This document shows, in pieces, positions 296 to 52,300 of a DNA stretch of 64,000 bases (its first letter is position 1; every line of letters starts with the position of its first letter). Under the pieces are notes generated by a model. The model searched no databases. It was not told the DNA's origin and worked only from the letters and a program-made list of their open reading frames with translations. The translations under genes were made by a program, and so were the position numbers. Origin of the DNA: Escarpia spicata (Eukaryota; Annelida; Polychaeta; Sabellida; Siboglinidae); assembly GCA_963995525.1 (NCBI GenBank), contig OZ023208.1, positions 20,228,295-20,292,294 on the forward strand. Reading direction: 5' to 3'.

Positions 296-3200
296 CTAGC
301 AGTCCCTCGTAGTGCGTGTCATCCGTGTCAACATGGCCGTCAATGACACACTTGAGTCGCTTCAACTTCAGCACGTCCTCAAGCAGCTGAAACATGACAT
401 GTCAACATTACTCTCATGTCAGCTGAAACGTGACATGTCAATACCATTCTCATGTTAGCTGAAACATGATATGTCAGCATTATTCCGATAAAACAGAAAC
501 ATGACGAATCAGATGTGTAAAGAAGAGGGGGTGGGATTCGTAGATTTATGGGGATACTTTGTTGGGAGGGAAGATATGTACATGAGAGATGGCCTACATC
601 TAAGTGGAAAGGGGGCAGCAGTTTTCTCAGAGAACTTGCTGCAATCTGTTGACAGTGGGACAGGCTGCATCTATTTAAACTAGATTTGCAGGGGGGATTC
701 ACAGAGAAGCCTGAAACTGGAGGCATAGATAAAGACAGCAGAAATAAATCAGCAAAGAACAGCCTGGAAAACTGTTCTGAATCAGGATATAAATGCATTT
801 GTTTAAATGCAAGGAGCATAGTAAACAAAAGAAGTGAACTAAACATTATGGTAGAAGATATTGACCCTCACATAATAGGTATAACCGAATCGTGGGCCAC
901 CACTGATATATCAGATGCCGAATTGGGACTAACAGGATATGTAATGTTTAGGAAAGATAGAATAGGAAGAAAGGGAGGTGGAGTTATTTTATATATTAAA
1001 GAATCTATCCAGGCTTATGAAATAAAATTAGAAAGAGAAGCAGATTGCGAAGAAGCTGTTTGGTGTAACATAGTTACAGGAAACTCAACCTTAACAGTTG
1101 GGTTAGTTTATCGAAGTCCAAACATAAGCATAGAAGAGAATGATAAAATACAAAACGCTATAAGGGAAGTAAGCAAACGGAACTGTATTATTATGGGGGA
1201 CTTTAACCATGGGCATATACAATGGAAATCTCTACAGAGTATGGGGAGTGAGGACCACAAGTTTTTAGTTTTAGTACAAGATAGTTTCCTTTCTCAACAT
1301 GTGCTAGAACCAACCAGGGGAGAGAATGTGTTAGACTTAGTTTTGTCCTCACAGAAAGAATTAGTTGACAATGTCAAGATATGTGAGCCACTGGGGAGTA
1401 GTGATCACAACCAGATACATTTTACCATCAAAGTAAAATCAGAAAGGAATAGTAAAAAGCAGTATAGGAGAAATTTCCACAAAGGAAGGTATAAGGACAT
1501 GAGGAAATATTTAGCAAAGATAGACTGGAATAACACACTGAAGAATAAGACAGCAACCGAATGCTGGAATATCTTAAATAGTTAAATTAAGTGCATAGTC
1601 GATAAATTTGTACCTTTCAAAAAACAAGGGAAACGGTCTAAAAAGAAACACTTATCGAAAGAAGCCATTAGAAAAATTAAGTATAAACAAATGATGTGGA
1701 AGTCATATAGATGTACTGGAAATGATGAAGACTACAACATTTATAAAGAAGCACTTAATCAAGCTACAGCTGAAATTAGAAATTCAAAGAGAAGCTATGA
1801 AACAAAATTAGCTAGTAATATAAAACATGACAGTAAGAGTTTTTATGCGTATATTCGAAGCAAACAGAAAGTTCAGGATAAGGTCGGTCCTCTAGAAGAT
1901 AGTGCTGGAAATACAATATCAGAGGGATTCTTAATGGCAGAAGACCTGAATGAGTATTTTAGTTCAGTGTTTACCAGGGAAGATATTAGTTCACTGCCAG
2001 TACCAGAGGCTAAGTTCAAGGGGGTAGATTCAGACTATTTAGGACAGTTAGTTGTAACCTCGGAAATGGTAGCTAAGAAAATAAGGGCTATGAAGGATAA
2101 TAAATCACCTGGAGTGGACGGGATTCCGCCCAAACTACTATTGGAAATTGTAGAACAAATTAGCGCACCGCTTGCAACAGTTTTCAATTTGTCATTAGAA
2201 GAGGGAGTGGTTCCTTTAGAATGGAAAGAGGCAAACATTATACCGTTATTTAAAAAAGGTTCGAGAAACAAGACAGAGAACTATAGACCAGTGAGTTTAA
2301 CATCAGTGATTTGCAAATTATTAGAAAGACTAATTAAAGATCACATGGTGGATTTTCTTGTTAAACATAACTTGATAAACCCATCTCAACATGGGTTTTT
2401 AAAAGCGAGGTCATGCTTAACAAATATGTTATGTTTTTTGGAAGACATCACTAGGTGGGTAGATGAGGGTTCACCAGTAGATATCATCTATTTAGATTTT
2501 CAAAAAGCTTTCGACAAAGTACCACATCAAAGATTACTCCTTAAGCTAAAGGCCCATGGCATAGGAAATGGTATAATAAACTGGATAGAAAAATGGCTGA
2601 ATGACAGAAGACAACGTGTAGTAGTTGATGGGGAGGCTTCAAACTGGAAATCGGTATTGAGTGGGGTACCACAGGGATCAGTACTAGGCCCTATATTATT
2701 CTTAATATATATCAACGATTTGGACGATGATATAACAAGCAAGGTGTTAAAATTTGCGGATGATACAAAAGTGTTTAGAAGGATTAAAAGTGATGGAGAC
2801 AGACAGCATTTACAAGATGATCTTGATAGGTTGATCAAATGGTCTGAAAAGTGGCAAATGCTGTTCAATTTTGGGAAATGTAAATGCCTCCACATAGGAC
2901 ATGGGAACGAAGAGGTAAAATATAAAATGGGGGGTACTGTTCTAAGTACTACTGTAAAAGAAAAGGACTTAGGGTCAACCATTAGTGCTGATATGAAGGT
3001 TTCAGAGCAGTGCGGAATTGCAGCTTCAAAGGGAAATCAAATCCTTGGATTAATTAGGCGAAACATAACGTATAAGGAAAAAGAGCTAATAATACCGCTG
3101 TACAAAACAATAGTTAGAATATTGTATACAAGCATGGAGGCCATATCGCAAGAAGGACATAGATATGCTAGAAAGAGTACAGAGGAGAGCGACTAAAATG

Positions 3201-49300: not shown

Positions 49301-52300
49301 AATGTTGATAACAGTTATATACAACTACATTAACATTCATTCATTCAACATTCCATCATACAGTTCTCACTTTAAAAAGTCCGTCTGACATTTTTATCAT
49401 AAACTAAGTTTTGTGGCCAGAATTTCAACAATAAGGTGGAATGCGTTAACGCACCACCATTTGTTGATGGTTTCACAGAGCTTTTGCTAGGCAATTTGTT
49501 TTTTAACAACAGGAAATATAATGTTTCAAAAATGCAGTTTCTCACCCGTACAACATGTCAATCCGCAGCCAAACATTTGATGTTTAAAACTGGTGTCATA
49601 GTCACCTGCTTAAGTGCATTCATCTTGGCGTTGAAGTGCGGAAGCTTGAGCATCTTCAACGCAATGACAAGTCGCAGGACATCTATCAGCTTGACGTCCT
49701 CGGGCCACAAGTGTAGACACAGCAGCTTCATGCTGACCAGCAGGTCGTACACACAGCCCGCCTTCTACAGATCAACAACACAGGACAGGTCATACACACA
49801 GCTTGCCTTTTACAGGTGACCACAGGACAGGTTATACACACAGCCTGCTTTCTACAGGTGAACACAAGACAGCTTATACAAACAACCCGCCTTCTGCAGG
49901 TGAACATAGGACAGGTTATATACACAACCCGGCTTGCTCAGGTCAACACAGGACAGGTCATACACACAGCCTGCCTTCTACAGGTCAACACAGGACAGGT
50001 TAGACACAGTCCGTCTTCTACAGGTTAAAACAGGACAGGTCATACACACAGCCTGCCTTCTACAGGTGAACCACAGGACAGGTTATACACACAGACCCTG
50101 TACGTATTTACCTTCTCCTTGAGTTCGTTCTCATCGAGGCCCTGCACGTACTTCACACCCTTCTCCATGCCTGCACACAGCATCGGCTCCACCACATTCT
50201 CCTTGAGGTACTCCGCACATACCCCTAGCGGAGCCAGCAGTGCTGCCATCGACTGGGCATGCAACAAATCTACCAATGTACATGCTAGGTATTTCGTATT
50301 TTTTAAAGATGTTGTTTTTGTACAATAAACATGCTAGTTTAGGGATGAACAACAGATACAAAACTCAGTTCTATTTGTTTCCTACTCAAACACACTACTG
50401 TTTATTTATATATACATTTTACATGATACAAATGTCGGTATTTAATAATAATAATAAAATGTGCACCGTTTGCTGTTAATAACCCATTGATGACGAGGGA
50501 CAAACTTACTGTGCACTGCGCCAATCTCACATACATTTGTGAACATTACAGGCTTCCTACGGTCTATAGGAACTTCCTGGTAAATTTGTTAGTGCTCCGG
50601 TTCTTGGGTAAGCAAATTCTCAAATCAGTAGAGCTCATGTCACTGTCTCTGTTGACTTACCGCGGTAGTGAGACCGTCTCCCTCTAATCTCTCTTGGATC
50701 AAGTCAAAACCTTTCTTCTCAGCAAACTGTCAACACACAACATTCCATAGCTTACACATACTACAAAATTGTTTTGTGTAACAAAGAAGCTTTAACTATT
50801 TACTGGGTAGACAGCCTTCTTATTGTACACCCTGCTGGAGGACAATTGTGAATTGTTTGTGTGTTGCTTGCATTAAAATTTGGATATCTCGACAACCAGT
50901 GCATGAAAATATATGAAATTTTAATTACATTGTCTATAGAAATGAATGTTTGAATAAAATATGTTGTTAAAATTGCTGTGTTGCATTCAATTAAGTTTCA
51001 GATCTTGAAGTGAAATTAAACAATTACACAATAAAACATCAATTTCATCATGCTATACCACAAAATTCACAGAACCTACCATGTGTTCCAGTGAAACAAA
51101 TGTAGCTATGCATGTTAGTTTTGCCCTAGTAAAACATTGATCCAATTCTGATGGTTAGTTTTCAAATTACGCATTATTTTGTAAACGACACCAATGTGCA
51201 TGAAACAAAATTACAGAATGGCTACCGTCTACTGATCATATTAGTGAATGGTATATTCTGTTCCAATACAAAATCAACACCCGAAATGTTGAAAGACAGC
51301 AAACTCTTTCACAAATGTGTGATCTCTTAGCATTATCAATGTGATCAAGGTAGCAAAATACAGCAAAAGTAAACACATTAAACAAGGTGTGAACAGTGCA
51401 ACAAGATGGCTGCATATATACTGCGAAATGAAGACGCCAACGACAGGTGATCTGCTGGATATCTCCGTGTCTAAAACTCACATTGACATCGTAGTTGGAT
51501 GATAACAGAACTCTGTGATTGTTGCTACTGATGCTGAATACATCGATTTCTGACTTAAAATTAACAGAAAACGATTTCAATCAAATCCATCAAATGTTGC
51601 GTGATGTCGGAGTTCATTCTGACAAACGCAACTCAACTTCCTTCCAAATAAACTCTCTTAATTCACAAACTGCCTTCGCAAGATGGCGAAAGCATGTGTA
51701 TTCTTGACCTTTATAGAATCTAGGTCACCAATCTGACTTGGCTAGTTAGTGTAAAAGAAGGATCTGATCACGGTAAATGAAAGGCCTTGGAGAAGCAAGT
51801 CCTGTGGACATTTTTGGATGGCCTGCGCGTATGAGGGGGTGGGCGCTTTTGGCTGCCCTGTGCAGTAGAGTTAAACAATAAGCAACAAATGAATGTAAGA
51901 TGACACATTTGTAACACAATCATAACACAACACATCATGTTGATATGTCATATTGGTGATATCACACAGCACACAAGATATATAACGCAACCAGTTGTTG
52001 ATGTTACACAGAATGAGGAACAAACACAATACAAAATTAGAGAAGGAACAATGGAGACAATAAACGAACAGAACAAATTATCTGCAGATTGTGTAAATAA
52101 ATGCTAGCATGTATTGTTAAAACCAAATTGACAGATATCCCAGAAGGACGAATTTCACAAAGGTATGTGAAATTTTATGGATGGCAATCTTGTGGAATAC
52201 AAATTGTGTTGATGGATCAACACAACTGCACAGACCAACACACCTATATAGGTGATACACACAGCCTAGTGAGAACATACACGTTTGTTACTCACCCTAT

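Follow-up and report, generated by a model that had tools for sequence, protein, structure and literature searches.

The window analysed here is a stretch of 64,000 nucleotides (nt) from the siboglinid annelid Escarpia spicata (contig OZ023208.1, positions 20,228,295 to 20,292,294), and the gene in question is USP24, which continues past the low end of the window and whose introns inside it total 54.3 kb.

296..61901, minus strand: USP24, exons 1-56 (two spliced models plus a hand-placed exon 56; start codon at 61901)

All gene models used in this work are homology-based. For USP24, model 1 is a spliced alignment with an approximate human USP24 sequence, and model 2 is a spliced alignment with the chiton protein P0001. 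The two are identical at 50 of exons 1-55; model 2 altered exons 14, 15, 28, 46 and 55, and this version is used throughout. Exon 56 (296-386) was positioned by hand, the spliced models covering exons 1-55. The exon numbers in the initial annotation of this DNA are the same as those in the spliced models.

USP24 contains tandem arrays built from its own 3' splice sites together with the start of the next exon, and these arrays are confirmed as real. At 10 of 55 acceptors a tandem duplication spans the junction and copies the acceptor AG plus 3 to 40 nt of exon. Ten acceptors had been claimed initially to carry splice-site-seeded repeats, and all ten were found again when each junction was compared with its own intron. 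The arrays, catalogued with Tandem Repeats Finder (the repeat list below), are as follows.

384..482, minus strand: 36 bp array over the exon 56 acceptor, 3 nt exonic (Tandem Repeats Finder, junction scan)
3671..4129, minus strand: remainder of the exon 56 array (36 bp unit), past a retrotransposon (unit identical in the repeat list)
11136..12159, minus strand: 57 bp array over the exon 47 acceptor, 27 nt exonic (repeat list, junction scan)
12726..15638, minus strand: 48 bp array of about 62 copies over the exon 46 acceptor, 24 nt exonic (repeat list, junction scan)
20947..21407, minus strand: 43 bp array over the exon 39 acceptor, 16 nt exonic, with a degenerate tail (repeat list, junction scan)
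24169..24273, minus strand: 58 bp duplication, two copies, over the exon 36 acceptor, 40 nt exonic (junction and self-comparison)
27727..29902, minus strand: 53 bp array of 41 copies over the exon 32 acceptor, 10 nt exonic (repeat list)
40018..41040, minus strand: 50 bp array over the exon 20 acceptor, 11 nt exonic (repeat list, junction scan)
46558..47211, minus strand: 36 bp array of 18 copies over the exon 12 acceptor, 8 nt exonic (repeat list, junction scan)
47523..48477, minus strand: repeats of about 306-344 bp, about three copies, over the exon 11 acceptor, 9 nt exonic (repeat list, junction scan, self-comparison)
49741..50094, minus strand: 42 bp array over the exon 9 acceptor, 24 nt exonic (repeat list, junction scan)

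The exonic lengths per unit agree with those first reported (9 against about 10 nt at exon 11), except at exon 36, where 40 nt are copied and 38 had been claimed. All ten do lie at acceptors, but two are low-copy only, namely exon 36 with two copies and exon 11 with about three, the latter with a unit of about 306-308 bp. The anatomy of a unit can be read at exon 12, where the junction is ctgttgacag/CATGACGA (the slash marks the exon edge) and coding sequence follows at the exon, while in the five upstream copies printed CATGACGA is followed by the spacer tgttgttgaatgaggtct. Some introns consist of little else: the repeat makes up 330 of 347 bases of intron 8 (49765-50111) and 2166 of 2203 bases of intron 31 (27737-29939). 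Intron 8 without its extra units would be about 35 nt long, which suggests that the array either replaced the intron or was present at its birth.

For the junction test, 60 nt around each junction (30 nt per side) were compared with the adjoining intron, and a match had to span the junction; the cut-off score of 21 was chosen after the gap in the USP24 scores had been seen. At this cut-off, 10 of 55 acceptors and 2 of 55 donors of USP24 are spanned (Fisher p 0.029). The next own-intron score is 16.5 and does not span, and the top score among 660 controls, in which junctions were compared with other introns, is 15.5 (6 of the 660 are absent from the ranking). Lower spanning scores occur at the exon 52 acceptor (13.0) and the exon 37 donor (11.5) of USP24 and at the COPA exon 12 acceptor (11.0), all below the cut-off. 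A fixed-offset scan of USP24 also returned two further donors, that of exon 2 (score 61; a TG microsatellite of period 14) and that of exon 11 (16.0, with 2 exonic nt), and both were rejected as junction arrays, for neither passes the own-intron test.

USP24 is the discovery gene and was chosen as striking. The three test genes, CLTC, the 3' half of COPA and a 5 kb part of SF3B1, were picked for their conservation and many exons, with their introns still unseen; their exon numbers are those of partial models, and the four genes lie on four different contigs of a 1.06 Gb one-haplotype assembly. In CLTC, 5 of 29 acceptors (exons 9, 11, 16, 19 and 27) and 2 of 29 donors are spanned, one of the latter (exon 6, score 24.5) by one diverged copy only. 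The examined parts of COPA and SF3B1 give 2 of 16 acceptors and 2 of 16 donors, and 1 of 5 acceptors and 0 of 5 donors, respectively. Junction matches in the four genes score 21 to 57.5; the top control scores, counting spanning control alignments only, are 13.5 of 388 in CLTC, 11.0 of 192 in COPA and 9.0 of 72 in SF3B1. The printed units of the test genes have the same anatomy as those of USP24. For example, at the donor of the third modelled COPA exon the unit AACATTGAG/gtaagatg is repeated in a 16-copy array, and the donor array of the first modelled exon likewise has 16 copies. Pooling the four genes gives 18 spanned acceptors and 6 spanned donors, each out of 105 (Fisher p 0.016). Rows excluded before counting were CLTC exons 1 and 32-34 (unreliable models, with the loss of an exon 32 donor match scoring 50) and SF3B1 exon 7, as well as two non-spanning matches, the CLTC exon 28 donor (25; its array starts 5 nt inside the intron) and the COPA exon 7 acceptor (17.5).

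The number of arrays at exon edges was compared with a simple null, in which seeds are evenly spread over intron sequence. The four genes contain 48 arrays, of which 16 span an acceptor, 3 span a donor and 29 are others, while uniform seeding expects 3.25 for each edge type (P 1.9e-8 for acceptors and 0.64 for donors). The three test genes by themselves have 8 acceptor-spanning arrays against 2.18 expected (Poisson P 0.0019). The excess at acceptors is thus about five-fold over uniform seeding, and donors are at chance. The automatic classes behind these numbers are conservative: the split part of the exon 56 array, the exon 39 tail and the exon 17 donor array were placed among the 29 others, and USP24 exons 11 and 36 were not counted as spanning. 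Among the 29 others, 5 end at most 40 nt upstream of an acceptor and 2 begin at most 40 nt from a donor (1.78 expected each). From the above, the 3' splice-site region appears to be a hotspot of seeding or expansion, and an acceptor bias in one of these two steps is likely.

The initial annotation had read the arrays as products of a recurring process instead of members of a single repeat family, and the units bear this out, since those of different USP24 arrays are unrelated. Units from different arrays align with a local score of 11.5 at best, which corresponds roughly to a shared acceptor motif in length, and 6 of 66 unit pairs outscore all of their 30 shuffles. For four tested units (of twelve), all 45 of 45 genome-wide matches fall in their own arrays, in a search that skips very common words. 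The copied exon parts are coding and conserved in the chiton protein at exon 36 (GKQLVHDLLHDF against GKSLVGDLLHDF) and exon 39 (SVFCQVQ against SVFYQIQ), so copying ran from exon to intron there. Seven arrays were walked, and 109 of their 122 copies retain the AG (exons 11, 36 and 56 lie outside this count, and exon 46 contributes only 9 of about 62 copies). However, invariance is seen in 12 of 14 AG columns and in 257 of 329 columns overall, so the AGs are not marked out as conserved, and special selection on the AG was rejected on this ground.

Taken together, we propose that tandem duplication of short segments has struck exon edges, above all 3' splice sites, many times over in separate events, and that the copies expanded into minisatellites in which most units include the AG and the opening bases of the exon; we give this reading a probability of roughly 0.62. 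The junction-spanning arrays, the unrelated units, their presence in four genes and the five-fold acceptor excess are directly established. The first step would be a tandem duplication across the junction, by slippage or by end joining with template switching, and the array would then grow by unequal exchange or slippage among its own units. Splicing probably still takes place at the exon-adjacent copy: splicing to an upstream AG would in most cases shift the frame or bring in a premature stop, so the exon-proximal acceptor would have to dominate. The least certain step is the hotspot itself, which might arise through breaks coupled to transcription or splicing, or through R-loops on a T- and G-rich coding strand, although this is a guess. 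On the coding strand of the acceptor arrays, T exceeds A in 16 of 16 and G exceeds C in 15 of 16, against 20 of 29 and 14 of 29 in the other arrays (p 0.11 for T/A and 0.024 for G/C).

Several observations weigh against this reading. Equality of donors and acceptors, which the initial annotation had set against its own proposal, is not seen in the pooled counts (p 0.016), but the difference is not significant without USP24 (8 of 50 acceptors and 4 of 50 donors in the three new genes alone; p 0.36). The T and G skew could be no more than a legacy of the acceptor tract, which is 43% T and 25% G. Short direct repeats (7-mer) at non-array acceptors show no excess over donors (p 0.93), and repeat-prone acceptor sequence was rejected as the cause; non-array acceptors are rather poorer in direct repeats than intron interiors (p 0.053). 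Seven units were folded and none formed unusual hairpins (z -0.9 to 1.5), so hairpin-driven slippage was discarded for these seven. Neither test thus yielded a cause in the sequence. A tentative minimum of 18 intronic nt in every unit (p 0.023 across nine USP24 arrays) is broken by CLTC exon 11 and COPA exon 11, with 15 and 16 nt. Moreover, the low-copy loci of USP24 are without an acceptor excess. In a self-comparison of the gene, 20 tandem-duplication loci were found, 10 at acceptors, 2 at donors and 8 in intron interiors; these loci were merged by hand, the exon 12 array (probably lost to low-complexity filtering) was re-added by hand, and exon 11 was assigned from the junction scan. Among multi-copy loci 8 of 12 lie at acceptors against 0.48 expected, and among low-copy loci 2 of 8 against 1.21 expected. 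The difference in acceptor share is not significant (p 0.17), and in these small numbers it hints that the acceptor bias lies in expansion instead of seeding.

The simplest alternative is tolerance alone, in which duplications arise everywhere and those that span an acceptor survive because the last copy still works. It agrees with donor-spanning arrays near the uniform rate (3 against 3.25) and with the abundance of arrays away from junctions (29 of 48). However, duplications that stay within an intron should do no more harm than these, and on tolerance alone most arrays would be interior and 3.25 of 48 would span an acceptor, where 16 are found; the excess recurs in the test genes, and donor duplications, tolerated by the same logic, occur only at the chance rate. 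This was the simple model favoured at first for this DNA, and we find it insufficient and consider it unlikely as the whole explanation. The other proposal made at that time, a specific mechanism at 3' splice sites, is favoured by the acceptor excess.

Seeding could also be even and persistence biased, if selection keeps the exon-proximal unit, arrays are refreshed from it, and interior arrays decay or vanish. The restriction of the USP24 excess to multi-copy loci would fit such a history, as would the exon-proximal units of the exon 12, 39 and 46 arrays, which equal the consensus. In the arrays of exons 9, 32 and 47, however, this unit ranks at or near the top in divergence (0.76, 0.91 and 0.93 identical to the consensus), and donors should gain equally but do not. 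We regard this explanation, too, as improbable.

That the repeats were made or inflated by the assembler is very unlikely. In favour of it stands that only one haplotype is available, but scattered variants among units exist in most arrays, one array is broken by a retrotransposon, and the pattern is present in 4 of 4 genes, each on a contig of its own. The number of copies may nevertheless be off.

Equally far-fetched is the idea that the extra acceptors are selected for robust exon recognition or for isoforms. Exon 46 is the sole array that speaks for it: each upstream unit is predicted to add 16 residues in frame, the eight units nearest the exon (12750-13133) are open in the exon frame, and use of the upstream acceptors would yield longer USP24 isoforms. 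In the other nine of the ten USP24 arrays, upstream use is predicted to meet a stop in the first unit (8 of 10) or to shift the frame (exon 39). In the exon 32 array an A precedes the AG in 36 of 41 copies, where the authentic acceptor has C, which would weaken most of these decoys, and the AG columns are not specially conserved. The exon 46 repeats did mislead gene prediction: an acceptor-like unit led model 1 astray, and this was mended in model 2. Annotators should be warned that an acceptor-like site is present in most array units.

Introner elements are dispersed copies of one family in many introns of a genome, and a dispersed satellite or transposable element of this kind that targets splice sites would explain why many introns of one gene are affected, but we give it almost no credence, as the units here are mutually unrelated, contain local exon sequence and, in the four tested, match nowhere else in the genome.

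The proposed duplication of exon edges is not confined to acceptors. The donors of exons 17 and 24 of USP24 are likewise arrayed, so the first listing, which had named acceptors only, was incomplete, and an acceptor-only process was rejected. Three interior arrays serve as comparison.

35545..35672, minus strand: 53 bp duplication over the exon 24 donor (junction scan, self-comparison)
42577..43151, minus strand: 17 bp array resembling the exon 17 donor region, donor at 43138 (repeat list, junction scan)
26681..27319, minus strand: interior array, away from junctions (self-comparison)
34086..34441, minus strand: interior array ending 34 nt upstream of exon 26 (self-comparison)
53300..54126, minus strand: interior 28 bp array (self-comparison)

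The three interior arrays were considered as displaced acceptor arrays and rejected, with no match in the junction scan (30 nt per side) and none by eye. The exon 17 donor array, with its 17 bp unit, is broken by an insert of about 350 bp, within which a 30 bp AT-rich palindromic repeat is found (42769-42884 and neighbours).

The phylogenetic position of the host matters for comparison with known systems. Among the best 120 of 420 matches (7987 candidates scored), the closest relative of USP24 is ubiquitin carboxyl-terminal hydrolase 24-like from Liolophura sinensis (58% identity); next come an annelid, one unnamed protein and further molluscs. A tree built from 26 proteins places the query within the lophotrochozoan group with support 100 and outside the sampled molluscs, beside an annelid and a nemertean in no firm branching order. 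An amphioxus source, considered at first, was rejected on these two results.

The same structures were termed "mirages" in amphioxus genes, where the available portions of the reports place them at both 3' and 5' boundaries (PMC3087553, PMC3902484). As in those accounts, the tandem units here span the splice junction and carry the splice signal (AG or GT) with exon sequence, both boundary types are affected (18 acceptors and 6 donors of 105 each), and unit lengths overlap, with 17 to about 308 bp in USP24 against 10-72 bp in Adh3 and 150-160 bp in BflGb6 (PMC3087553, PMC3902484). The differences, as far as those portions go, are that the present host is a lophotrochozoan, outside the reported cephalochordate range, and that here 18 of 105 acceptors are arrayed in four genes, with up to about 62 copies and a measured acceptor excess over uniform seeding. 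In amphioxus, judged by reverse transcription polymerase chain reaction (RT-PCR), mirages seemingly leave regular splicing undisturbed, and they are unstable in length (PMC3087553); somatic instability, too, is reported for amphioxus. The available text on amphioxus huntingtin mentions tandem repeats, though not at junctions (PMC2206037).

The Rogers model and later studies, as cited in PMC3087553, describe intron gain or growth via tandem duplication of AG/GT proto-splice sites. In that summary, as here, a tandem duplication carries splice signals and exon sequence. Here, however, existing introns grow at the 3' end and the units are only partly exonic, whereas the model as summarized there has an intron that is wholly a duplicated exon segment with AGGT. 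Repeat fills nearly all of introns 8 and 31, though its units are only partly exonic, and this could mean replacement or birth by repeat. Another intronic minisatellite near spliced exons is CeRep25B of C. elegans, one dispersed 24-base family near alternative exons, which in the portion of the report available is not described as copying an exon junction (PMC4039745).

In our literature search, which covered titles and abstract openings and had most subscription papers outside it, no such arrays were reported outside cephalochordates. The kind of structure is therefore already known as mirages, while its range, its rate and the excess at acceptors seem to be new within the reach of this search. 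A broader reading is possible but tentative: a mutational process specific to 3' splice sites and coupled to transcription or splicing may seed and amplify private minisatellites at a large share of the acceptors of this genome, so that introns lengthen from their 3' ends, and amphioxus mirages may be a second independent case. With about 1 in 6 acceptors arrayed in four conserved genes of a lophotrochozoan, the process would become testable at genome scale. If the rate holds, the genome would contain very many independent natural tandem duplications of splice acceptors, which bear on how the spliceosome chooses among up to 60 near-identical acceptors, on intron lengthening and on the pile-up of duplications at 3' splice sites beyond what tolerance predicts.

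The exon 56 array is split by a mobile element.

653..3551, plus strand, antisense to USP24: non-LTR (long terminal repeat) retrotransposon within the exon 56 array (PF14529, PF03372 and PF00078 matches in 653-3196)

The Pfam matches of the element are to endonuclease and reverse transcriptase. The reading frame at 3114-3551 has no Pfam match and is probably part of the same retrotransposon. A 10 bp repeat (AATCTTGTTA, 3628-3660) follows the element.

Minisatellites make up 21% of the introns of USP24, 43% in CLTC, 37% in COPA and 28% in SF3B1. In the two 100 kb flanks of USP24 their share is about 6.5% and 10%, so in this genome they may belong mostly to introns. When 400 bases from inside the window were searched against the genome, a second near-identical copy of the locus did not turn up. 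In 200 kb beside USP24, a coding-potential scan gave no neighbour gene that could be modelled. A dispersed repeat of about 200 bp at 16106-16320 has at least 40 further genome matches at 75-85% identity, and beside USP24 a 539-codon open frame (contig positions about 20345268-20346884) is perhaps a mobile element.

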